Below are positions 2,747-54,222 of a DNA stretch of 64,000 nt, piece after piece. Position 1 is the stretch's first letter. Each line of letters opens with the position of its first letter. The notes below the pieces were generated by a model that was not told the origin of the DNA, ran no database searches, and worked only from the letters and a program-made list of their open reading frames with translations. The DNA comes from Gemmatimonas groenlandica (GTDB lineage Bacteria > Gemmatimonadota > Gemmatimonadetes > Gemmatimonadales > Gemmatimonadaceae): NCBI RefSeq assembly GCF_013004105.1, contig NZ_CP053085.1, forward strand, positions 620,001-684,000, given 5' to 3'. Both the position numbers and the translations under genes were made by a program.

Positions 2747-5533
2747 TCACCGACGCCACTGCGCTCCGACCGAGACTTGGCGCCCCATGCGGTACGACTC
2801 ACGCGTCACCGGACCCTGCGTGAGCTTGTACGGCGCGTCGAGCAGGTTGCGCGCGTCCAGCTTGAGCTGGAACAGCTGCGTCACCGGGAAGCGCACGGAG
2901 AAGTCCACTACGTGGCGCGTCTGTTCCTTCACGTCGGGGAAGGGAATCGTGCCAGCGGCGTAGATGCGCGGACCCACCGCCGAGTAGAGCAGCGTGGAGG
3001 AGATGCGTCCCGACTTGCTCGCCCACGACGAGCCAACGTTGGCCACCCACGGGGCCTGGCCCATCATCGGTCGATCGGCATTGGTGTTCGCCGAGGCGTC
3101 TCCGCCCACCTTGATGGTGCTCTGCATCAGCGTGAGGTTCGTGAATACGCTGAACGCTTCGAGCGCACTGGCCACGTTGCCGAGATTCTTGCGGGCCTCG
3201 AGCTCGACGCCGAGGTTGCTGGCCGACGCGGCGTTGAAGAACGAGACGATCGGGGCGCCGCCCGTGGCGATATCGATGCGCTCGATGGGGCGATCGAACT
3301 GCTTCGCGAACACGCCGATGCTGAACACTTCTTCGGCGTTCGGGAAGAGTTCGTACTTGAGATCGTAGTTCTGGATCAGTGTGCGTACCAGGTCACCATT
3401 GCCGCGCGTGATCTGGCCGCCGATCACCTCGAGGTACTGCACCGGCGAGAGTTCGCGATACTCAGGGCGCGCCAGCGTCTGCGAGGCCGAGGCGCGCAGC
3501 TGACCATTCTCGGACAGCTTGAAGTTCAGCACGGCGGCGGGCAGCACGTCGGTGTTCTTGAGCGTCGAGACAAACGTGTTGTTGTTCGTCAGCGACGTGT
3601 TCACCGTGATGTTGGCGTCTTCGAGACGAGCGCCGGCGATAAGCCGGAGGCGCGAACCGAACGGCAGCTCGAGCATGGCATAGCCCGCGGCCAGGCGTTC
3701 GGTCGCATCGTAAATGCCGTCTTCCGCCACGTTGATGACGTTGAACTGGTTCGCGTTCCCCGTCGTGTAGCGTCCGTCGAAGAGCGATTCCGCCGGCAGG
3801 TTGCGATCGGCGACCGGCACAGAATTGGAGACGATGCTGAACTGGCGGTTCACCGCGTCGCGCGCGGTGGTGCGGTACGAGCCACCCATCTTGAGCTTGA
3901 CAGCGTTCGGGCTGTCGCTGAAGGCGAGTCGGTAGTTCGCACCACCCGTCCAGTTGCTCTCATTGAGATCGCCGAACGTGCGACGCGCCACGTCAGGATT
4001 GCCGTCGCTCCAGGCGTACGGCCCTCCGGGAGTGAACTGCGCGTACACGAGGTCGGAGCGATCCGGCTCGCGGCGCGACACGCCGGACGACGACACGGTC
4101 CAGTCGAGATTCTGACGTCCGCCGATCGTATGCTCACCCTTGAGCTGAGACGAGCGGATTGTGCGCTCCACATACCGCAGCGTGTTACGCTGGATATTGA
4201 TACCGGAGAAACCGAACGACGCGCCTTCGTTCTGGCGAGCCTCGTTGTCCGCGCTGCGGGTGTACGTGTTGTTGAGCGCGATACGATTCTTGCTGCCGAG
4301 CATGGTGCTGGTGTTGAACATGCCGCCCCACAGCACGCCACGGCGACTGCCCGTGCCCTGCCACGACTCGAGCACCTGCGGCCGGCCATCACGCTGAATC
4401 GGATTGGCCTGGTAGTCGTCGGCCCGTACTTCCTGCGTCGTCGAGTACGTGAACGATGCGAGGTAACCGACACGCTGACCGAAGATCGGATCCTGACCAC
4501 CGACACTCAGGCCGAGCGAGCCATTCGGAGCACCTGCCTGCTGCACCGGCGTCCAAGCGTTGCGCAGCGAGTTCACCGCGCCGTTCATTGCTTCGCGAGT
4601 CGTGAGGTTCGCCACATCACGTGCCGTCGCCAACTGGGCCGGTACAGCGCGAGCCGCGCCAGCGCTGGCGCGCCACTCCGTGCCGACGGTGGGAGCGCTC
4701 GCGATCTGACGTCCGGTCGCCTGATCGTTCATGCCGATCGACGTCGAGAAGATGTACGTGCGGCGCAGCGGGAACTCGCGCGTTTCGATATCGACTGAGG
4801 CGCCTGAGAAGTCGCCGGCCAAGTCGGGGGTAAACGTTTTCGTGGTGTTGATGGACTGCAGCAGCGCCGACGGAAAGATGTCGAGCGGCACGAAGCGCTT
4901 TTCCGGCTCCGGGCTCGGCAGTCGGGCGCCGTTCAGGTTGGTCACGGTGTACCGCTCGCCGAGTCCGCGCACGAACACGCTGCGTCCGTCCTGCACGGTC
5001 ACGCCGCTGACACGCTGGATCGCCTGCGCCGCGTCACCATCGGGGCTCTTGGCGATCTGCTCGGCCGTGACCGAGTTCACGATACCGGTGGCGGTGCGCT
5101 GCTTGTCGAGCGCTTCGTTGACCGTGCCGCGCTCGCTGCTCGCAGTGACGCTCACCGCCGCCAGCTGGAGTTCGGCCGTGCTGAGCGAGATGTCCTGCGT
5201 GAGCGCACCGTTCGCCGGCACGATGATGCCCGTGACGGTTTTGGGTCCGTACCCGATACGCCGCACTTGAATCGTCACGGTGCCGGCAGGGACGCGGGCG
5301 ATGATGTATCTACCGTCGACGCCGGACTGCGTGCCGATGGTGGTGCCGACCACCTGCACGCCAGCGGCCGCGATGCCTTGGCCAGTGGTCGCGTCGATGA
5401 TGCGGCCGGTAATCCGGCCGACGGGAGCGTCAGCCCCCTGTGCTGCAATAGTAGAAGCGGGAACGACGGCAGCCGCAATCGCCAGCGTCAAATGACGCGC
5501 GAAACGGGAGAGCACGTGTGCGTAGGTCCGCAT
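2747..5533 (-). CDS. TonB-dependent outer-membrane receptor with carboxypeptidase-regulatory domain
   Basis: From the ATG at 5533 the protein has 928 residues. The start MRTYAHVLSRFARH precedes a signal peptide ending near ASTIAAQ. A CarboxypepD_reg-like domain follows (GRITGRIIDATTGQGIAAAGVQV, about residues 37-115). Then comes a plug domain (about 125-250: SPDGDAAQAIQRVSGVTV, FVRGLGERYTVTNLNGARLP), and the remainder is a beta-barrel ending RQVSVGAQWRR. The FVRGLGERYT and TKTFTPDLAGDFSGASVDIET segments place it in a TonB receptor clade without an attached SusD. It imports some substrate across the outer membrane using TonB energy. The adjacent lipoprotein is probably a partner. The substrate is not readable from the sequence. 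Confidence 0.93.
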   Translation of the reverse strand: MRTYAHVLSRFARHLTLAIAAAVVPASTIAAQGADAPVGRITGRIIDATTGQGIAAAGVQVVGTTIGTQSGVDGRYIIARVPAGTVTIQVRRIGYGPKTVTGIIVPANGALTQDISLSTAELQLAAVSVTASSERGTVNEALDKQRTATGIVNSVTAEQIAKSPDGDAAQAIQRVSGVTVQDGRSVFVRGLGERYTVTNLNGARLPSPEPEKRFVPLDIFPSALLQSINTTKTFTPDLAGDFSGASVDIETREFPLRRTYIFSTSIGMNDQATGRQIASAPTVGTEWRASAGAARAVPAQLATARDVANLTTREAMNGAVNSLRNAWTPVQQAGAPNGSLGLSVGGQDPIFGQRVGYLASFTYSTTQEVRADDYQANPIQRDGRPQVLESWQGTGSRRGVLWGGMFNTSTMLGSKNRIALNNTYTRSADNEARQNEGASFGFSGINIQRNTLRYVERTIRSSQLKGEHTIGGRQNLDWTVSSSGVSRREPDRSDLVYAQFTPGGPYAWSDGNPDVARRTFGDLNESNWTGGANYRLAFSDSPNAVKLKMGGSYRTTARDAVNRQFSIVSNSVPVADRNLPAESLFDGRYTTGNANQFNVINVAEDGIYDATERLAAGYAMLELPFGSRLRLIAGARLEDANITVNTSLTNNNTFVSTLKNTDVLPAAVLNFKLSENGQLRASASQTLARPEYRELSPVQYLEVIGGQITRGNGDLVRTLIQNYDLKYELFPNAEEVFSIGVFAKQFDRPIERIDIATGGAPIVSFFNAASASNLGVELEARKNLGNVASALEAFSVFTNLTLMQSTIKVGGDASANTNADRPMMGQAPWVANVGSSWASKSGRISSTLLYSAVGPRIYAAGTIPFPDVKEQTRHVVDFSVRFPVTQLFQLKLDARNLLDAPYKLTQGPVTRESYRMGRQVSVGAQWRR

Positions 5534-5546
5534 GGATGATCGGGTC

Positions 5547-5552
5547 TGTATA
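5547..5552 (-). promoter_or_regulatory. Candidate -10 element of the TonB receptor operon
   Basis: TATACA on the minus strand lies 13 bases upstream of the receptor ATG and predicts a very short leader. No convincing -35 was seen. A direct repeat of CGGTTGTG occurs further upstream near 5660-5680 and may be regulatory. Confidence 0.35.
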
Positions 5553-5766
5553 TGAAGACTGCGGAGACGCCCGTTCGGGCGCTCGTGGTTCCTGGCCTGC
5601 CGGACCGCGTGGGCTCCGGATGACCAGTAAGCTTCGTGACCCAGGTTTCGATCTCCGCACGGTTGTGCAACGGTTGTGTCACGGAGCACGGCATTGAGGC
5701 GACTTCGACTCACGCTCCGGAGGGGGCTGGTGCGGCGTGCCCTGTCGTGATATTCTCGCCCGCACA

Positions 5767-6708
5767 ATGGCTGCCTCTGATCCCCTGCTCGAGCGTCGAC
5801 GCGTCGCGTCGCCCCCTCCTACCGACCCGCAGACCCGCGCCGAGGCCCTCTCGGTCGCGGCCCGAGCCCTGCGCGCCGCGGAACACGTGTGCGTACTCTC
5901 CGGCGCTGGCGTGTCGGCCGAAAGCGGCATTCCCACCTTCCGCGATGCTCTGACCGGCCTCTGGGCGAAGTACAAGCCGCAGGAGCTGGCGACGCCTGAC
6001 GCCTTCGCGGCCCACCCGATTCGCGTGTGGCAGTGGTATGCGGCGCGCCGGTCGATGGTACGGTCGGCGCAGCCCAATCCGGCGCATCAGGCGTTGGTGA
6101 CCCTGGCGTCGCGCGTTGCGCACTGTACGCTGGTGACCCAGAACGTCGACGACCTGCACGAGCGCGCCGGCTCACGTGACGTGATCAGTCTGCACGGTTC
6201 GCTGATGCGCGCCCGCTGTAGCGCCGGGTGTCCGGGGACGATGGTGCCCACCGAAGACCAGGCGGCCGAGCCACCAAAGTGCGTCACCTGTGGCGCCCTC
6301 ATGCGTCCCGACGTGGTCTGGTTCGGTGAGCCGATGCCGATGGCCCAGTTCGAGGCCGCGCGCAACGCCGCCGTGGCCTGCGACGTGTTCCTTTCGGTCG
6401 GCACGTCGAACGTGGTCGAGCCGGCGGCGTCGCTGCCGTGGATTTCGGCCACGCACGGCGCCACGGTCATCGTGGTGAATCCGAACATGGACGGGCAGCG
6501 CCGCGGCCCTAGCATCCTCCCTATCGAGGGTCCGGCCGGGGTGATGTTGCCGCGCCTGATCGCCGAGGCGTTCGCCGGTCGGCGCGCCCGTCGACATGAG
6601 TCGAACGCTCCACCGATCCGTGAGCAGGCCGCCCCAGCTTCGGCCGCGGCTCAACTACCGATCGATCCGCCAGCGCCCATTCTCTCTTCGGATCAGCCTT
6701 CGGAGTAG
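5767..6708 (+). CDS. cobB: Sir2-family NAD-dependent protein deacetylase (sirtuin)
   Basis: It removes acetyl or acyl groups from protein lysines using NAD. Visible motifs are the NAD-binding LSGAGVSAESGIPTFRD, then TQNVDDLHERAG, the catalytic His in SLHGSLMRARC, and a complete Zn ribbon (CSAGC and CVTC). MRPDVVWFGEPMP and the late VGTSNVVEPAASLP complete the sirtuin core. The C-terminal tail of about 50 residues is Arg/Pro/Ala-rich and non-conserved. The ATG at 5767 is chosen because TATTCT lies 10 bases upstream. An in-frame GTG at 5737 has a good GGAGGGGG ribosome site 10 bases upstream and is the alternative start, adding 10 residues. Its 3' end overlaps the convergent histidine-kinase gene by 16 bases. 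Confidence 0.92.
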   Translation: MAASDPLLERRRVASPPPTDPQTRAEALSVAARALRAAEHVCVLSGAGVSAESGIPTFRDALTGLWAKYKPQELATPDAFAAHPIRVWQWYAARRSMVRSAQPNPAHQALVTLASRVAHCTLVTQNVDDLHERAGSRDVISLHGSLMRARCSAGCPGTMVPTEDQAAEPPKCVTCGALMRPDVVWFGEPMPMAQFEAARNAAVACDVFLSVGTSNVVEPAASLPWISATHGATVIVVNPNMDGQRRGPSILPIEGPAGVMLPRLIAEAFAGRRARRHESNAPPIREQAAPASAAAQLPIDPPAPILSSDQPSE

Positions 6709-28456: not shown

Positions 28457-28497
28457 TTCTGATGGCCTCTGTCCCGCCCCTCCTCGAGCTCCCTGAG

Positions 28498-31400
28498 ATG
28501 ATTCGCCGTACACTCTTCCTCTCGATTTCGGCCGCCTGCGCCACGCTTCCACTGGGGCTTTCCGTTGGCGCCCAGGCCAAGCCGGCCGCAGCGCCGGCCC
28601 GGGCCGTTGCCAAGGTCCCAGCGGCGGCGATGATGGCCGCCGCCGACCCGGCCCTGTTCAAGGGTCTCAGCTACCGCCAAGTCGGCCATTCGCGCGGCGG
28701 CCGCGTCACCACCGTGACCGGTGTGCCATCGCAGCCGAAGACGTTCTATGCCGGTGTCGCCAGCGGTGGCGTGATGCGCACCACCAACGGCGGTGAGTCG
28801 TGGGATTTCATCACCGACAACAAGATCCCGCTCGGCTCGACCGGTTCGATCGCGGTGGCGGAGTCGAACCCGAACATCATCTACGTGGGCACCGGCTCGG
28901 ACGGCGTGCGCAGCAACGTGTCCACGGGCCGTGGGGTGTACAAGAGCGTCGACAACGGTGCCACCTGGCAGTTCGCCGGCCTGTACAACGCCGGACAGAT
29001 CGGCGCGGTGCGGATTCACCCCACGAACCCGGACATCGTCTGGGTCGCGGCATACGGCGACATCTTCAAGCCGAACAACGAGCGCGGCATCTTCAAGACC
29101 ACCGACGGCGGCAAGTCGTGGAAGAAGACGCTGTACGTGAGCGACAGCACGGGCGCGATGGATGTGGAGTTGCAGCCCGGCAATCCGAACGTGGTGTACG
29201 CGTGGATGAATCGCATCGAGCGCAAGCCGTGGTCGATCATCTCCGGCTCGCGCGAAGGCGGTTTCTACAAGAGCACGAACGGCGGTGACAGCTTCACCAA
29301 GATGGTGGGTGGCCTGCCGAATCAGATCACCGGCAAGGGCAACCTGGCTGTCACGGCGGCCAACCCGAATCGCATTTACGCGCTGGTCGAAGCGATGCCG
29401 GGCGGTGGTCTGTATCGCTCCGATGATGCCGGTGCGAGCTGGGCGCTCATGAACAGCACGCCGGGGCTGATCACGCGTCCGTTCTACTACACGTCGCTGG
29501 GCGCCGATCCGTCGAATGCCGATGTGGTGTACGGTGGCGCCGAAACGTTCTACAAGAGCACCGACGGCGGCAAGACGGTCGCACCGTTCCGCACACCGCA
29601 CGGTGACAATCACGACATCTGGATCAATCCGACGAACAGCAACACGATGGTGCAGTCGAACGACGGTGGCGCGAACGTGTCGTACGACGGCGGCAAGACG
29701 TGGAGCTCGCAGGATGTGCAGCCGACGGCCGAGTTCTACGGCGTGTGGCTGGACAACGCGTTCCCGTACAAGCTGTACATGGCGCAGCAGGACAACAGCA
29801 CGTACATCGTGCCGAGCAACAACGACCTGTTCAACATGAGCACCGTGCGCACGGGTCCGGGCTGTGAGACGGGTCCGATCATTCCGCATCCGAGCGACCG
29901 GAACCTCATTCACGGCAACTGCAAGGGGCAGTACTCGCTGATGAACGTGGACGCCGGCGTGACGAAGAACTACTGGATCGGCGCGCAGTCGCTGTACGGA
30001 AACGACGGTGGTGATCTCGACTACCGCATGCAGCGCACGACGCCGATGGCGCTGTCGCCGCATGACCCGAAGGTGCTGTACTACGGCTCGCAGTTCCTGC
30101 ATCGCACCCGTAACAACGGCGCGACGTGGGAGAAGATTTCGCCCGACCTCACCTGGTTCCCGAAGTGCTGTCAGGGCGGCAGCGGCGAGCCGATCACGCG
30201 TGACGTGACGGGTGAAGAGTTCTACAGCACGCTGTACGCGATTACCGAATCGTCCCTGGAGAAGGGCGTGATCTGGACGGGTTCGAACGACGGTCCGTTC
30301 TCGGTCACGCGTGACGATGGCAAGACGTGGAAGCGCGTGACGCCGAAGGAGCTGGGTGAAGGCGGCCGTGTGGCATGGATCGAATCGTCGCCGCACCGCA
30401 AGGGCTCGGCCTACTTCGCGACGTATCGCTACCTGCTCGGCGACTACAAGCCGTACATCTACCTCACGAACGATTACGGCAACACGTGGAAGCTGCTCAC
30501 CGATGGCACGAATGGTATTCCCGCCGACGCGCCCACGCGTGTGGTGCGTGAAGATCCCGTGCGCGAAGGACTGCTGTACGCCGGTACCGAGTTCGGCATG
30601 TACATCTCGTTCGACAACGGTGGGCACTGGCAGCCGTTCAACCTGAACATGCCGCAGATCCCGATCAACGATATCAAGGTGTACCGTGGTGACCTGGTGG
30701 TCGCGACGCAGGGTCGCGCCGCCTGGATCATGGACAACATCGCGGCGTTGCAGCAGATCGGCCCGACCACGCAGAGCGAGTCGTTCGTGCTCTTCAAGCC
30801 GCGTGACGGCTACCGTACGACGACCACGCCGCAGCTGCTCGGCCCGACGGTGGACTACTTCCTGGCCAGTGCACCGAACGACACCGTCCGTATCGACATC
30901 GTCGATGCGGCGGGCAAGGTCGTGAACACGTACAAGAGCGGCATCATTCCGCAGGCACCGCGTCCGCGCTTCGGCGGCGGCGAGGATGACCCCGATGAGG
31001 CGATGATGGCGGGACGTGGTGCGCGCCCGACGCTGGTGGCGCCGACGGTGAACCTCGTGACCAAGAACGCCGGTATGAACCGCTTCGTGTGGGGCGTGCA
31101 GCACTCCAACGGACTTGGCTCACCGCCGGGCACCTACACCGCGAAGGTGACGGCCGGTGGCGTCACGAAGTCGGTGCCGCTGCGCGTGCGCATCGACCCG
31201 CGCCTGGCGGCCGACGGTACGACGGAAGCCGACCTGCAGGCGCAGTACACGCACAATCTGAAGATGCGTGAGATGGTGGCCGACGTGAACGCGCTGCTGG
31301 CCCGGGTGCGTACGGCGGAAGCCAAGTACAAGGGCGCCACCGGCGCGGCGGCCGACACGGCCACGAAGGTGAAGGAAGTGAGCGAGATCGTGAACACGCA

Positions 31401-31581
31401 GCCCATTCGCTACGGCAAGCCGGGGCTGCAGGCGCACATCCAGTATCTCGCCGGCATGACGGCGCGGGCTGACCAGAAGGTGGGTCAGGACGCGTACGAG
31501 CGGTACACGTTCCTGCGCAAGGAACTGGAAGCCGCGAAGGCCAAGCTCGATCGCGCGATCGGGCCGGCCACGCGCATGTAA
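28498..31581 (+). CDS. Exported sortilin/VPS10-like BNR-repeat protein
   Basis: From the ATG at 28498 (MIRRTLFLSISAACATLPLG) the protein has 1027 residues with a signal peptide ending near GAQA. An in-frame ATG at 28462 is the alternative start. The bulk is repeated BNR/Asp-box strands (TNGGESWDF, SVDNGATWQF, TDGGKSWKK, SNDGGANVSYDGGKTW, NDYGNTWKL), which form sortilin-type beta-propellers. The C-terminal part (about 800-1000) has a DTVRIDIVDAAGKVV strand region and helices. Proteins of this type are often labelled glycosyl hydrolase, but I see no catalytic motif that proves it. It is extracytoplasmic with unknown ligand. The TerB-like gene follows nine bases later. Confidence 0.85.
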   Translation: MIRRTLFLSISAACATLPLGLSVGAQAKPAAAPARAVAKVPAAAMMAAADPALFKGLSYRQVGHSRGGRVTTVTGVPSQPKTFYAGVASGGVMRTTNGGESWDFITDNKIPLGSTGSIAVAESNPNIIYVGTGSDGVRSNVSTGRGVYKSVDNGATWQFAGLYNAGQIGAVRIHPTNPDIVWVAAYGDIFKPNNERGIFKTTDGGKSWKKTLYVSDSTGAMDVELQPGNPNVVYAWMNRIERKPWSIISGSREGGFYKSTNGGDSFTKMVGGLPNQITGKGNLAVTAANPNRIYALVEAMPGGGLYRSDDAGASWALMNSTPGLITRPFYYTSLGADPSNADVVYGGAETFYKSTDGGKTVAPFRTPHGDNHDIWINPTNSNTMVQSNDGGANVSYDGGKTWSSQDVQPTAEFYGVWLDNAFPYKLYMAQQDNSTYIVPSNNDLFNMSTVRTGPGCETGPIIPHPSDRNLIHGNCKGQYSLMNVDAGVTKNYWIGAQSLYGNDGGDLDYRMQRTTPMALSPHDPKVLYYGSQFLHRTRNNGATWEKISPDLTWFPKCCQGGSGEPITRDVTGEEFYSTLYAITESSLEKGVIWTGSNDGPFSVTRDDGKTWKRVTPKELGEGGRVAWIESSPHRKGSAYFATYRYLLGDYKPYIYLTNDYGNTWKLLTDGTNGIPADAPTRVVREDPVREGLLYAGTEFGMYISFDNGGHWQPFNLNMPQIPINDIKVYRGDLVVATQGRAAWIMDNIAALQQIGPTTQSESFVLFKPRDGYRTTTTPQLLGPTVDYFLASAPNDTVRIDIVDAAGKVVNTYKSGIIPQAPRPRFGGGEDDPDEAMMAGRGARPTLVAPTVNLVTKNAGMNRFVWGVQHSNGLGSPPGTYTAKVTAGGVTKSVPLRVRIDPRLAADGTTEADLQAQYTHNLKMREMVADVNALLARVRTAEAKYKGATGAAADTATKVKEVSEIVNTQPIRYGKPGLQAHIQYLAGMTARADQKVGQDAYERYTFLRKELEAAKAKLDRAIGPATRM

Positions 31582-48361: not shown

Positions 48362-51300
48362 TCAGGGGAGCGTGAGAGTGGGGAGCCCGGCCGCTTTGCG
48401 TTTGGCGTTGAAGGCGGCGATGCCGGTGGTGCGCAGCGCGTTCCACTTGGGTAATACGTCGACCCCCATGGCGCGCGCTGCGGAGCAGGCTGCCACCTGC
48501 GTGGAGGTGGGGGCCACGTCGGCGTTGTGCATCGCCATGGCGGCGGCCAGCATCGCCGTGCTGGCGCTTTCGAGTGAGGCCGCGGTGGTGGTGGCGCCGC
48601 GACGACGGAAGCCTCGGATATTGCGGGCGGTGGCCGACGACGGCGCGACCGCTTCGAGCTGCGCTTTGAGGGCATCGACATCGGCCCCGCTCATGGCGTT
48701 CAGCTGCGTGACGACGGCACGGGCGCTCACGAAGGCGCGGTGGGTCTCCACGGCGCCGCGGTACATCTCGGTGCTTAGCGCGTGCAGGCGCGCGAGGCCG
48801 GCGGCCGGCGTCTTCACGCGCGGATCGAGCCGAAGCGTGAGCGGCTGCTCGTACGTCGTGCCGTTGGCGGTGAGACGCACGGTGTACCGGCCGGGCGGGG
48901 CCCACGGGGCGTTCACGACGGGGAGCGTGCGGCCCGGCACGGCGCCGGTGGCGTCATCGTCGCCTTGCGGAATGGCGTCTTCCGGGGTGACCGGATCGAA
49001 GTGGAGATCCCACGTGAAGCGGTGGAGACCCGCATCGTCGGACAACGCCTGCGGCGGGCCAGGCCAGTAGAGCGGCAGTCCGCAATACGGCGCCGTCGGC
49101 GTCTTCTTGCACACCTCGTTGTAGCGAGCACGATCGATGTACGGATGTGGATCGAGCGCCTTCTGCGCGCTGGAGTACGAGCGCACCAGCTTCCCCGTGG
49201 CATCGAGAATTTCGAGCGCGATGGGCGAGGAGGCCTTGGCGGCGAGCATGTAGTCGATGAACACGCCCGATGGCGCGCTCTCGCCCGACGGCATCTCCGG
49301 CGGCCACGGCGTGGGATCGTTGGTGGCAAAGCGGACGCGTACCGCGGTGGCCGGCTTGAAGAGATACGCGTTGCGAGCAGCGACGGCCGCGCGCGAGGCG
49401 GCCATCTGACGCAGCGGAGTGATGTTGTCGAGAATGTAGAAGCCGCGGCCATGCGTGCCGGCGATCAAGTCGCTGCACAGGCACGTGCTGTCGTCCTTGA
49501 CCTGAAGGTCGCGCACCGCAATGGCCGGCATGTCGATGCGCAGCGACTCCCAGTGGTCACCGTCATCGTACGACACCCACACCTGCGTATCGGTGGCGCC
49601 GTACAGCAGCCCCTTCACCTTGGGATCTTCACGGATGGCATTCGCCGGCGCATTGCCCGGCAGTCCGTTGCTGATTTCCGTCCATGTCGCACCAGCGTCG
49701 TGCGTGCGATAGAAATGCGGACGCAAGTCATCAAGACGGAAGGTGTTCGCGGCGATGTACGCCGTGCCGGCGTCGAAGTGCCCGGCGTCGATGTTATAAA
49801 TGCGCGTCCACGCCTTGAGAGCGCTCGGGGTCACGTTCTTCCACGACGTGCCACCATTGGTGGTGACCTGCACCTGTCCGTCGTCGGTGCCGGCCCACAG
49901 CACGCTGGCGCTGCGCGGCGACGGTGACAACGCGGTGATCGCACCGGCCGGTGCCGGGGTCACGGCGCTGCTGTACTTGCCGGCCGTGGCGGGAACGTCC
50001 CACGTCTGCCGCGCGAGATCGGGGCTGATGCGCGTCCAGCTCTGGCCGCGATCGAGCGTCTTCCACACGACGTTCGACGCGTAGTACAGCACGTCAGGAT
50101 TCACCGGCGAGAAGTGCAACGGCATCGTGCGCACGTTGCGGCCGAAGTTCTCGCCCTTGGGGCCGCGTACCGACAGGTCGGGGCCCACCAGCACGGTTTG
50201 TCCCGTGCGACGATCGTACTTCGACACGTTCGTTCGCTGGCTACCGAACACCACATCGGGATCACGCGGATCCGGCGCGGCGATACCGTACTCCTGGATG
50301 TTGACCGGATGCCAGTCGTGGAACGTGATGCGGCCGTCGTCGGAGCGGCTGTTCACGCACGCCGAACCGGAGTCTTGCTGGCCGCTGCAGACACGATACG
50401 GAAACGCGTTGTCTGTGGTCACGTGATACATCGCCGCCGTGGGCTGCGTGTACCAATTGCTCCACGACGCGCCGCGATTACCCGACACCACCGCACCCTG
50501 GTCGGCCACGGCGAAGATGAGATCGGGATTGTTGGGATTTACCCAGATCTTCTGATAGTCGTCACCGCCCGGCGCGCCGCGTACGGCCGACCAGGTGAGG
50601 CCGCCGTCTTCGGTGCGCCACATGACCGTCGACGCGCTATACACCACGTTCTCGTCGCTCGGGTCGACCGTGATCGTGGGCAGGTCACCACCGCCGATGC
50701 GCGCCAACGGACGATTGTCCACGAACTTGGGCGCGGCGCCCACGGTCGAACCGGGACCATTCACCGCGAGGAACCAATGCTCGCCGGCGTCGGTGGACTT
50801 GTAGAATCCGATCGGCCCCGATGCACCGGCGGCAGACCCGGCCGGTGGCGCCGCGGCGACCATGGCGTACAGCACCTTCGAGTTGCCGGGCGCGAACGCA
50901 ATGTTCGCCTGCAGCACCGACGGCAGTCCTACCGTGAGTTGCTTCCAGGTAGTGCCACCGTCGGTCGACTTGAAGATGCCGTTGCCGCCACCGCCGAAGC
51001 CTTGTCCTTCGATGAAGCTCTGTTGCTGCTGCCAGAGCGTGGCGTACACGATGTCGGGATTCTGCGGATCGATGCGCACGTCATTCGCGCTCGTGTACTC
51101 GTCCTTGTACAGCACGCGCTGAAACGACGCGCCACCATCGAGCGACCGGAACACGCCGCGTTCCGTGTTCGGTCCGTAGGGATGTCCGAGTGCGGCCACG
51201 AACAACCGGTCGGGATTTTTCGGGTCGACATCGACCATCGCGATCATCTGCGACTCGCGCAGGCCGAGATGCGCCCAGGTTTTACCGTTGTCGATCGACT

Positions 51301-51688
51301 TGTACATGCCATCACCGACCGCGAGATCGGGACGGATGATGCCGGCGCCGCTGCCCACGTAGATGACGTTCGGATTCGACGGGGCGACCGCGATCGCCCC
51401 GATGGAGCCGGTGGGCTGGTCGTCGAATAACGGCACCCAGTTCGAGCCGTAGTCGGTGCTGCGCCACACGCCGCCGTTGTCAAAGCCGGCGTAGAACACA
51501 CTCGGCTGCGAGGGCACTCCGGATAGGGCGCGCGCACGGCCGGCTCGGAGGGGACCGATAGCGCGCCAATGCAGCGCGCTCAAGCCCGAATCAGTTTGCG
51601 CGGGGAGCACGCGCGCGATCGGTGAGAGCGCCGTCGCGAGAGAAAGCGCGAACGAGCAGCGGGCCTGCAGAGAGCGCGGGATACGCAC
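48362..51688 (-). CDS. Exported sortilin/VPS10-like BNR-repeat protein (second copy)
   Basis: A 1108-residue protein starting with GTG at 51688 and a signal peptide ending near RVLPAQT. The BNR/Asp-box strands are frequent (STDYGSNWVP, SIDNGKTWAHL, SLDGGASFQRV, STDGGTTWKQL, TEDGGLTWSAV, SGNRGASWSNW, TNGGTSWKNV). A C-terminal part (about 820-1000) has a carbohydrate-module-like region, with RFTWDLHF and GRYTVRLTANGTTYEQPLTLRLDPR, and then a helical tail. The overall plan equals the protein at 28498 but the sequences are clearly different. It heads the operon with DUF305 and LVIVD genes. No hydrolase catalytic site is evident. Confidence 0.85.
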   Translation of the reverse strand: MRIPRSLQARCSFALSLATALSPIARVLPAQTDSGLSALHWRAIGPLRAGRARALSGVPSQPSVFYAGFDNGGVWRSTDYGSNWVPLFDDQPTGSIGAIAVAPSNPNVIYVGSGAGIIRPDLAVGDGMYKSIDNGKTWAHLGLRESQMIAMVDVDPKNPDRLFVAALGHPYGPNTERGVFRSLDGGASFQRVLYKDEYTSANDVRIDPQNPDIVYATLWQQQQSFIEGQGFGGGGNGIFKSTDGGTTWKQLTVGLPSVLQANIAFAPGNSKVLYAMVAAAPPAGSAAGASGPIGFYKSTDAGEHWFLAVNGPGSTVGAAPKFVDNRPLARIGGGDLPTITVDPSDENVVYSASTVMWRTEDGGLTWSAVRGAPGGDDYQKIWVNPNNPDLIFAVADQGAVVSGNRGASWSNWYTQPTAAMYHVTTDNAFPYRVCSGQQDSGSACVNSRSDDGRITFHDWHPVNIQEYGIAAPDPRDPDVVFGSQRTNVSKYDRRTGQTVLVGPDLSVRGPKGENFGRNVRTMPLHFSPVNPDVLYYASNVVWKTLDRGQSWTRISPDLARQTWDVPATAGKYSSAVTPAPAGAITALSPSPRSASVLWAGTDDGQVQVTTNGGTSWKNVTPSALKAWTRIYNIDAGHFDAGTAYIAANTFRLDDLRPHFYRTHDAGATWTEISNGLPGNAPANAIREDPKVKGLLYGATDTQVWVSYDDGDHWESLRIDMPAIAVRDLQVKDDSTCLCSDLIAGTHGRGFYILDNITPLRQMAASRAAVAARNAYLFKPATAVRVRFATNDPTPWPPEMPSGESAPSGVFIDYMLAAKASSPIALEILDATGKLVRSYSSAQKALDPHPYIDRARYNEVCKKTPTAPYCGLPLYWPGPPQALSDDAGLHRFTWDLHFDPVTPEDAIPQGDDDATGAVPGRTLPVVNAPWAPPGRYTVRLTANGTTYEQPLTLRLDPRVKTPAAGLARLHALSTEMYRGAVETHRAFVSARAVVTQLNAMSGADVDALKAQLEAVAPSSATARNIRGFRRRGATTTAASLESASTAMLAAAMAMHNADVAPTSTQVAACSAARAMGVDVLPKWNALRTTGIAAFNAKRKAAGLPTLTLP

Positions 51689-51781: not shown

Positions 51782-52693
51782 ATGACAGCCCAGTCCCCCG
51801 CCACCATTCGATACGGCACGATCGCCATTCTGTTGGCGGTGCTCTGTTGGGGTCTGCTGGGCGTCATGTCGCGCGTGGCCATGGCCGACGGCTCGCCACC
51901 CCTCACGGTGGCCTTCTGGCGGGCCGCGATCGCCGCTGTGCTGTTCACGGTTCACGCCGCGTTTACGCGTGCTGAGCCCATGCACAGCGCCGATCGCCCC
52001 GCCGCCGTGTTTCTCGGTGTGGCCGGCGTCGCCGTCCTGTACTACTCGTATCTGAACGCGATCGAGCAGGGCGGCGTGGCGTTGTCGTCGATCCTGATGT
52101 ATTCGGCGCCGATCTGGGTGGCGATCGGCGGACGGATCTTCTTTCACGAACGGGTCAGCGCGCGGGCCGCCGCGGCGCTTTCGCTCACCCTGGTCGGCGT
52201 CGCCATCGTAGCGCTGGCCAGCGGCACCGGCGAGGTGCGCTGGTCGCCGGGTGCGGTGGGGTGGGGTTTGCTCTCGGGCGCGATGTACGCGCTCTACTTT
52301 CTGGTGGGGCGTCGGCTCTTTTCGCGCAACGCCTCGTCGCGCGTGATGGCGTGGGCGTTGGGCGTCGGCGCCGCCACCATGCTGCCGTTCGTGCAGTTTC
52401 AGTCGCTCTCGCGCTCGGCCTGGGGCGGCGTGGCGTTCCTGGCCGTCGTGTGCACGTATGCGGCGTATCTCGCCTACGCCGAGGGGGTGAAGCGACTGCC
52501 CTCGGCGCGCGCTGCCACGATTGCGACGCTGGAGCCGGTGATTGCGGTGGTGGCCGCGTACGTGGTGTGGGGGGAACGACTCTCGCCGCTGGGGCTGGCG
52601 GGAGCGGCGCTCGTGATCGCCGGTGTCTTGCTCAGCGCGGCTGGGGAGTCGCGCAGAGGTGCCGCATCGCCACGTCAGCCAGCGAGCCTTTGA
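51782..52693 (+). CDS. EamA/DMT-family transporter
   Basis: A 303-residue inner-membrane protein with ten hydrophobic segments in two EamA repeats. The first repeat begins YGTIAILLAVLCWGLLGVMSRVA and includes SSILMYSAPIWVAIGGRIFF. The second begins GAVGWGLLSGAMYALYFLVGRRLF and ends VAAYVVWGERLSPLGLAGAALVIAG. DMT carriers export amino acids, nucleobases or other metabolites; the substrate cannot be told. Its start is set by the leaderless -10. Its 3' end overlaps the convergent adhesin-E-like gene by 62 bases, covering its Ser/Arg/Pro-rich tail. Confidence 0.92.
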   Translation: MTAQSPATIRYGTIAILLAVLCWGLLGVMSRVAMADGSPPLTVAFWRAAIAAVLFTVHAAFTRAEPMHSADRPAAVFLGVAGVAVLYYSYLNAIEQGGVALSSILMYSAPIWVAIGGRIFFHERVSARAAAALSLTLVGVAIVALASGTGEVRWSPGAVGWGLLSGAMYALYFLVGRRLFSRNASSRVMAWALGVGAATMLPFVQFQSLSRSAWGGVAFLAVVCTYAAYLAYAEGVKRLPSARAATIATLEPVIAVVAAYVVWGERLSPLGLAGAALVIAGVLLSAAGESRRGAASPRQPASL

Positions 52694-53036
52694 ACGACGG
52701 ACCGAAGCCAGGGATCTTCACCTCTTTGTGCATGCCGACTTTCTTCCCCGCGTCGTCGAGGTAATACCAGCTCTCTTTCGTCGCCACGGTCTGCTTGGCG
52801 CAGTCGACCATCGCGATCGTGCGCGAGCTGCGCAGATCACCCAGGGCATGTTTGAGTGGCGGCTGCAGGCGCACCCGCACCGTGGCGGTCGTAATTCCGT
52901 TGGCGCGTCGCACCGAATTGGCCTCGAGAAATACCGGCGTGCCCACCGACGTCTTGCCGATCTCGACCAGTTTCTGTGCGGCGGCCGGCGATGCCAACAG
53001 CACCGATCCGATCACGACGAGCATTGAGGCTTTCAT
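52632..53036 (-). CDS. Surface-adhesin-E-like exported protein
   Basis: From ATG 53036 it has 134 residues: signal MKASMLVVIGSVLLASPAAAQ, then KLVEIGKTSVGTPVFLEANSV, ATVRVRLQP and SRTIAMVDCAKQTVATKESWYYLDD. This pattern of a short beta-sandwich with one disulfide (VDCAK to RHLCATP) matches the surface-adhesin protein E-like family seen in many diderms. Its start lies one base after the stop of the TonB_C fusion gene, so both are made together. Function here is unknown; the family name comes from a Haemophilus adhesin and should not be over-read. Confidence 0.85.
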   Translation of the reverse strand: MKASMLVVIGSVLLASPAAAQKLVEIGKTSVGTPVFLEANSVRRANGITTATVRVRLQPPLKHALGDLRSSRTIAMVDCAKQTVATKESWYYLDDAGKKVGMHKEVKIPGFGPSFKGSLADVAMRHLCATPQPR

Positions 53037-53037
53037 G

Positions 53038-54222
53038 TCAGCGGCGTCGGCGGGCGGTGGAGTCGGGAACGAACGTGAACGGCAGCTGCATGACCTGCTG
53101 CACGACGCGTCCCTTACGCACCGCGGGCACGAAGCGCTGCTCGCGCACGGCACGGCGCACCGGCTCGACCAACGCACGATGCGTGGTCGTGATCGAGTTG
53201 AACGTCTCCATCACCGCTTCACCGTTGGTACCGACCACGAACTCGGCGATCAGTTCGCCGGCCACCTGCGCATCGAATAGGGAGTCGGGATAGATCGGCC
53301 GCACGAGCATGGACGAATCGACACGCGCGCCGGCGTCGACATCAGTGGCCGTGAATACCGTGGCCTCCTCGAGCAACTGCGCGATGCGCGCGGCCGGCGT
53401 GACCTCGCCTTTCTTGAGCTTCTTCTCGCGATACTCGCCGCGGCGCGACCACAGGACGATCGTGCCACAGCTACTGCTCATGCGCTGGTTGCCCTGGAAC
53501 TCCATCGGCACGCTGGCCGGGCCGCTGTACACCTCGATCCCTTCGAACGATCGCGGGTCGACGGCATCAAGATCGAATTCGGCGGCAAACAAGCCTTGGC
53601 CGTCGATCCACACCAAGGGAGAACACCGGGCGCCTCGAATGCGCACTTTGTTCTCGAGGCCACGTGACTCGATGCGGATCCCCGGCACCGAGCGTAGGAG
53701 GTCCGACATCCTGTTCGGCTGACGCTTTTCGATGTCGGCCTGCGTGAAGTAGCGTCCGCCGCCCGCCTGCAGTCGCTTGTAGAAGCCCGCCATCGGCCCA
53801 GTCATGTCGCGTCGGCCGATCACTTTCACCGCTGCGATATTCTGGGCGATCTGGCTCATCGTCACGGTCGGCTCGATCGACTGTCCGGCCACGACGGTGA
53901 CGAGGAGCGATTCCGGTCGGTAGCCAATGCGGCGTACGCGTAGCCACATCGCGCCTGCACTCACTTTGGCGGCGGTGAACTGGCCGGCATCGTCGGATTC
54001 GGCGAAGTCGACGGCGCTACCGAACCGGATCTGTGCACCGACCAGCGGCCGTCGTAACTCGGTCAGGACGGTGCCTTTCACGAGCCCGGTAAGGACCGGC
54101 GTGGCGACTTGCGCGGCGAGGTCGGTGCAGGGCAGAAGCGCCGTGGCAGCGCATGCGGCCAATGCGACGCGCCAGCGTCGGGTTGCGCGCAGATTCTTCA
54201 GGTGGGACGAGCAGTGCGGCAT
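53038..54222 (-). CDS. CarboxypepD_reg - TonB plug - TonB C-terminal fusion protein
   Basis: From ATG 54222 it has 394 residues. After a signal sequence (ending near DLAAQ) come a carboxypeptidase-regulatory-like domain (about 45-120, LTGLVKGTVLTELRRPLVGAQI and VRRIGYRPESLLV) and a plug-like domain (about 150-265). The plug part has RMSDLLRSVPGIRIE, KVRIRGARCSPLVWIDG and FEGIEVYSGPASVP. The C-terminal domain (about 305-390) resembles the TonB energy transducer: RPIYPDSLFDAQVAGELIAEF, then VEPVRRAVREQRFVPAVRKG. There is no beta-barrel. Receptor and transducer parts are therefore joined in one periplasmic protein. Similar short plug proteins occur in Gemmatimonadota; a role is not known to me. 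Confidence 0.8.
   Translation of the reverse strand: MPHCSSHLKNLRATRRWRVALAACAATALLPCTDLAAQVATPVLTGLVKGTVLTELRRPLVGAQIRFGSAVDFAESDDAGQFTAAKVSAGAMWLRVRRIGYRPESLLVTVVAGQSIEPTVTMSQIAQNIAAVKVIGRRDMTGPMAGFYKRLQAGGGRYFTQADIEKRQPNRMSDLLRSVPGIRIESRGLENKVRIRGARCSPLVWIDGQGLFAAEFDLDAVDPRSFEGIEVYSGPASVPMEFQGNQRMSSSCGTIVLWSRRGEYREKKLKKGEVTPAARIAQLLEEATVFTATDVDAGARVDSSMLVRPIYPDSLFDAQVAGELIAEFVVGTNGEAVMETFNSITTTHRALVEPVRRAVREQRFVPAVRKGRVVQQVMQLPFTFVPDSTARRRR

Follow-up and report, generated by a model that had tools for sequence, protein, structure and literature searches.

A barrel-less protein of Gemmatimonas groenlandica joining a SusC-type plug to a TonB C-terminal domain, a probable part of the TonB/SusC uptake machinery

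In descriptions of TonB-dependent transport, TonB contacts the TonB box of a receptor directly and in a single step. In a 64,000-nucleotide stretch of the genome of Gemmatimonas groenlandica (hereafter, the window), a dweller of soil and lake, one gene appeared to encode both halves of this contact in a single exported protein. A preliminary description of the gene named a soluble decoy, an adaptor between transducers and receptors, and a self-engaging scaffold as its possible roles. Here, we address whether the protein is real, how widely it occurs, and which of these roles fits it best. The protein and its full-length homologues are designated PT (plug-TonB).

Domain order and predicted structure

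The open reading frame runs on the minus strand from an ATG at 54222 to a TGA at 53040-53038 (Table 1). No lipobox cysteine was seen in its N-terminal region (residues 1-38). Pfam searches placed CarboxypepD_reg at residues 48-122 (40.6 bits), Plug at 159-238 (49.6 bits), and TonB_C at 308-385 (25.5 bits against a cut-off of 24.6), so that each of the three families read from the sequence earlier scored above its gathering cut-off. From the window sequence taken singly, the TonB_C assignment is marginal, and the NCBIfam model tonB_Cterm gave 13 bits, under its cut-off; all three Pfam families were matched by 20 of the 20 aligned homologues, TonB_C at values as low as 2.8e-13. The linker between the plug and TonB_C comprises about 40 residues and is Lys/Glu-rich. 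The 22-stranded outer-membrane barrel (PF00593) was absent from the 394-aa protein in both the Pfam search and the AlphaFold2 model.

Table 1. Features of the PT locus (window coordinates)
Feature	Residues	Coordinates	Strand	Basis
Whole PT gene: exported NTE - TonB-box-like strand - plug - linker - TonB_C	394 aa	53038..54222	minus	
Signal peptide region (...LAAQ)	1-38	54109..54222	minus	sequence, fast evolution, pLDDT <50
NTE / CarboxypepD_reg domain	44-128	53839..54093	minus	Pfam PF13620, SusC NTE fold
TonB-box-like segment (AAVKVIGRR region)	129-138	53809..53838	minus	SusC TonB-box alignment, model strand
Plug domain, Cys200 and Cys252 co-conserved	151-264	53431..53772	minus	Pfam PF07715, SusC plug fold
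Conserved linker with short helix (TPAARIAQLLEE...)	265-303	53314..53430	minus	homologue alignment; helix 276-285 (model)
TonB C-terminal domain	304-388	53059..53313	minus	Pfam PF03544, TonB CTD fold
Exported Adhesin_E-like partner	134 aa	52632..53036	minus	Pfam PF16747, 27.3 bits (cut-off 23.7)

The AlphaFold2 model, built on 35 family members, had a mean pLDDT of 78 and a pTM of 0.58. In fold comparisons, residues 44-129 resembled the SusC NTE 9hfj (Z 13.6, rmsd 2.3, 80 residues aligned), residues 151-264 the plug of the SusC protein BT1763, 6z9a (Z 10.7, rmsd 3.0, 104 aligned), and residues 296-388 the TonB CTD of P. aeruginosa, 6i97_D (Z 10.9, rmsd 1.6, 89 aligned); the TonB_C region also resembled E. 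coli TonB 1u07 (Z 9.8). A profile search against solved structures was concordant, its matches including TonB and homologues of SusC. The plug fold expected at about 150-265 and the TonB_C fold expected at about 305-390 were thus both recovered, and neither part turned out to be another fold. Domains and fold matches together bear out the central claim of the preliminary description, namely a covalent link between the parts of a receptor and those of a transducer in one protein without a barrel.

The protein has the N-terminal order of SusC/RagA and Oar receptors, namely a PF13620/PF13715 NTE, a TonB box, and a PF07715 plug. Unlike these receptors, it lacks the barrel, carries an appended TonB_C domain, adds a GFYxR...GRFFT segment before the plug as well as a pair of plug cysteines, and falls in a separate clade of the plug tree. 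All five receptor architectures of a published survey have a barrel, by the survey's own definition (PMC6434023). The PF03544 domain is common to PT and TonB transducers; however, PT has a signal peptide and neither a membrane anchor nor a Pro-rich spacer, whereas the organism's real TonB, the gene of which adjoins ExbB- and ExbD-like genes (identified by eye from sequence), has both. Since the barrel is missing in one case and the anchor and spacer in the other, the protein is a member of neither the receptor nor the transducer family, and is a variant within the TonB/SusCD kind.

A TonB_C domain outside a transducer was also found in a BlaR1-type M56 peptidase of the same genome (L053:1144-2778; G000:C1:4489708). 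That membrane protein has two TonB_C domains and, unlike PT, no plug; the M56 domain PF05569 in turn had no Pfam match in the window protein. The small gene preceding the peptidase gene may encode a BlaI-like regulator. M56 proteins with plug domains exist in Bacteroidota.

In an alignment of 68 full-length PT homologues with 22 neighbouring receptors, a PT segment of the form Lxx[VI]x[VI], following the NTE, fell at the position of the SusC TonB box LxEVVVTG. The Glu that is conserved in EVVVTG was missing from it. Residues 132-135 of this segment form a strand in the full model (block mean pLDDT 66) and were disordered when residues 39-290 were modelled without TonB_C (block mean pLDDT 46). 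No other strand of at least three residues was lost from the NTE-plug part upon removal of TonB_C. Because the strand vanishes in the shorter model, the difference in secondary structure between the two models suggests that the TonB-box strand pairs with TonB_C.

Cys200 and Cys252 were both present in 53 homologues and both absent from 15, and no homologue had only one of them. As the two residues never occur singly, their joint presence and absence points to a Cys200-Cys252 disulfide, which probably allows the plug to stay folded without a barrel around it.

Distribution, selection, and origin of the fusion

Strong matches were found in 29 of 30 genomes of the window's genus, and the single miss was an incomplete genome; in two further genomes of the genus, the sole copy was 37-39% identical. 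Among 298 Gemmatimonadota genomes (E <= 1e-40), the protein was full-length in 57, counted by hand from the listed rows as matches reaching the model end, with two more copies cut by contig ends, all of them in the window's family. In Gemmatimonadota outside this family, matches in the same search ended after the plug. A scan of 84,980 species, using strict patterns that distant relatives in other phyla could escape, returned 34 loci, almost all of them with Gemmatimonadota titles. A Gemmatimonas-type copy on a contig with the label Candidatus Kuenenia stuttgartiensis (L075) probably reflects a binning error.

Comparison with five orthologues (L058-L062) that were 79-82% identical gave pN/pS values of about 0.09-0.13 for TonB_C, the most constrained domain, 0.15-0.17 for the plug, 0.19-0.25 for the NTE, and 0.26-0.38 for the linker. 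The signal peptide evolved fast (about 0.56-0.83). The groove residues of TonB_C were conserved in the homologue alignment. These ratios indicate that purifying selection acts on every domain.

Barrel-less relatives that end after the plug occur throughout the class, whereas the TonB_C fusion is limited to one family. These plug-only proteins (NTE-box-plug) have the same NTE-plug part, a GFxxRR...GxF segment, and the cysteines, and form a separate group neighbouring the fusion proteins on the plug tree. The window's genome encodes at least seven of them (L002-L008; G000:C1:2256365, 3960504, 4072500, 1652324, 3793888, 2227297, and 32736), two of which adjoin SusC-SusD pairs, one convergent (L135) and one divergent (L137). 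The fusion proteins formed one group (support 0.825) in a FastTree phylogeny built on the NTE-plug part, apart from plug-only and SusC proteins; the sole exception was a contig-cut copy, L073. Since the fusion proteins group together, TonB_C was probably joined once, onto a long-standing barrel-less family. Judged by this tree and by the genome survey, the fusion is a single-origin family confined, within our sample, to Gemmatimonadaceae. The TonB_C domain of the window protein was 41% identical to the CTD of the organism's own TonB and 43% identical to the M56-TonB_C-TonB_C protein.

The many plug-only paralogues might suggest that PT is a decaying receptor remnant or a chance fusion. We rejected this barely conceivable reading: pN/pS is low in all domains, the fusion has a single origin and a family-wide spread, and the cysteines are co-conserved. 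Conservation together with low domain pN/pS also excludes chance or artefact. A phage or plasmid origin was rejected as well, as viral contigs held no relatives and the only other traces were one weak plug-only match on a Gemmatirosa plasmid and one weak PHROG match.

Every part of the protein belongs to a known family. The open-access literature searched contained no report of their combination, and no description of the plug-only proteins or of a Gemmatimonas SusD.

Gene neighbourhood and linkage to SusC-SusD

In the window, the small exported Adhesin_E-like gene begins at 53036, one base past the PT stop codon ending at 53038, as noted before. An adhesin function for its product was set aside, as nothing other than the Pfam name backs it. 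The clade of the window keeps the order protease - phosphodiesterase-like - PT - Adhesin_E-like gene, often followed by EamA, and in the genus clade the gap between PT and the Adhesin_E-like gene is frequently just a few bases. The expectation that this putatively co-transcribed gene always follows PT failed: the arrangement is confined to a genus-level clade, and SusC-SusD or other genes take its place elsewhere. Neither SusC nor SusD adjoins the window gene, and ExbB and ExbD are not among its neighbours. The 3' ends of the Adhesin_E-like (minus) and EamA transporter (plus) genes overlap by 62 bases (52632-52693).

Outside the Adhesin_E-like arrangement, PT lies immediately upstream of a SusC-like receptor on the same strand, usually with SusD next, at 21 of about 55 distinct loci by our own count, a type of count that common descent inflates; the tree labelled by neighbour type requires at least four changes. 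The remaining 34 loci have no SusC directly downstream. Among the 21 are second copies from the genus of the window that follow a GDSL-lipase gene (L041, L043, L044). With 10-50 receptor barrels per genome, chance adjacency would be expected at about one percent of loci or less. The gap between PT and SusC is often 200-350 bp, so that their co-transcription is putative. One neighbouring SusC scored 417 bits to TIGR04056, above the cut-off. The SusD-like neighbours, to which Pfam and NCBIfam gave no name, were confirmed by PDB profile matches.

The PT proteins of loci L087 and L118 are 52% identical and adjoin SusCs that are only 25% identical; the SusCs at L086 and L087 are 68% identical. Because sister PTs thus adjoin dissimilar SusCs, comparison of the sequences indicates that adjacency to SusC persists through partner exchange. 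Such adjacency could also mean that PT supplies its plug in trans to a plug-less barrel. This very improbable split receptor was rejected, since the adjoining SusCs retain their own NTE, TonB box, plug, and barrel.

A GDSL-lipase/TPR gene stands immediately before PT-SusC at L041, L043, L044, L112, L113, L116, L125, L126, and L128, and may also belong to the cassette. At L042, another second copy in the genus, a 413-aa transposase-like ORF (1143-2384, opposite strand) separates the lipase gene from PT. In one species, the order is alanine dehydrogenase-like - PT - SusC - SusD - PT - MreB-like (L097, L098, L102, L104, L105; the two flanking names were read by eye from sequence), and at the same site in others PT is kept and SusCD is absent.

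Loci of the last kind (L102, L104, L105) would suit a self-engaged sensor or scaffold. In this reading, the TonB_C domain takes hold of a PT box, either within one molecule or head to tail between molecules, the resulting assembly is what functions, and a ligand or partner, e.g., the Adhesin_E-like protein, alters it. The fixed partner gene of the genus clade, often a few bases away, fits this reading too, as does the box strand, which is modelled solely with TonB_C present. However, AlphaFold modelling of a monomer would bring matching parts together in cis also where the real contact is in trans, and recurrent SusCD linkage with partner exchange is not what such a scaffold predicts. We consider this reading unlikely.

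Possible role in TonB-dependent transport

Since relatives of PT sit directly before nutrient-gate genes elsewhere in Gemmatimonadaceae, the gene is probably an undescribed part of the TonB/SusC nutrient-uptake machinery. Among decoy, adaptor, and self-engaging scaffold, the SusC-SusD linkage of homologues and the comparison of models favour an adaptor or regulator. Specifically, PT may be a soluble periplasmic adaptor/regulator of TonB/SusCD transport, its own TonB domain gripping TonB boxes, a proposal to which we assign roughly even probability. The box gripped by TonB_C would belong either to PT itself (closed form) or to a SusC receptor, and the NTE-box-plug part would make a second box available to TonB-ExbB-ExbD at the inner membrane. 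Placed between motor and receptor, the protein could act as a gate, a relay, or a limit on their contact. The gripping would take place in cis at rest and on the box of SusC in the active state, with TonB holding the NTE-box-plug part; the most likely form is closed and paired with itself, opening to swap onto SusC or TonB. A periplasmic relay is doubtful; in it, inner-membrane TonB would pull the PT box and the TonB domain of PT would hold the SusC box, in series coupling through the detachable, disulfide-locked plug.

We infer the adaptor from the domains and their folds, selection, the position of the box, the dependence of the modelled box strand on TonB_C, the similarity of TonB_C to the organism's own TonB CTD, the SusC linkage at 21 of about 55 loci, the complete SusCs found there, partner exchange, and the single fusion. 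Against it stand the window locus itself, which has the Adhesin_E-like partner instead of adjoining SusCD genes, the 34 of about 55 loci without SusC next downstream, the often wide gaps between PT and SusC, and the box without the Glu of EVVVTG. Published experiments bear on the parts of the proposal: two-hybrid work reportedly showed an Oar NTE-plug fragment without a barrel to bind a TonB CTD (PMC6434023), and deletion of the BT1763 NTE, the role of which is unknown, abolished growth, with a choice among TonB paralogues being suggested (PMC7782687).

A tentative alternative, possible though rather improbable, is a decoy or brake that transmits no force and lowers futile or excess transport, the soluble TonB_C capping SusC TonB boxes or the plug part occupying TonB. 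Having no membrane anchor or Pro-rich spacer, PT is not itself energisable, its gene adjoins SusC in other lineages, and the conserved groove and strong constraint of TonB_C would be expected of such a cap. For a pure brake, however, TonB_C alone would suffice, leaving purifying selection on the NTE, TonB box, and plug unexplained.

If the adaptor proposal is true, a soluble protein with both contact halves, tracking SusC-SusD, would represent an added intermediate or control layer in TonB-dependent transport. In addition, PT is a natural plug outside a barrel, probably stabilised by a disulfide. The isolated plug of FepA behaved as unfolded (review PMC11658791). With a soluble protein, whether the plug moves in a folded or an unfolded state becomes testable.

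Other parts of the window were also inspected. A regulatory RNA was rejected, as the window held no Rfam match or tRNA, and a promoter/terminator scan, which says little for this phylum, found nothing. A receptor-sized TonB-dependent gene (2747-5767, minus) is followed by a 588-aa lipoprotein-like gene (898-2664, minus). Two large sortilin/VPS10-type proteins are encoded at 28462-31581 (plus) and 48362-51688 (minus), the latter assigned by Pfam and the former 40% similar to it by BLAST.
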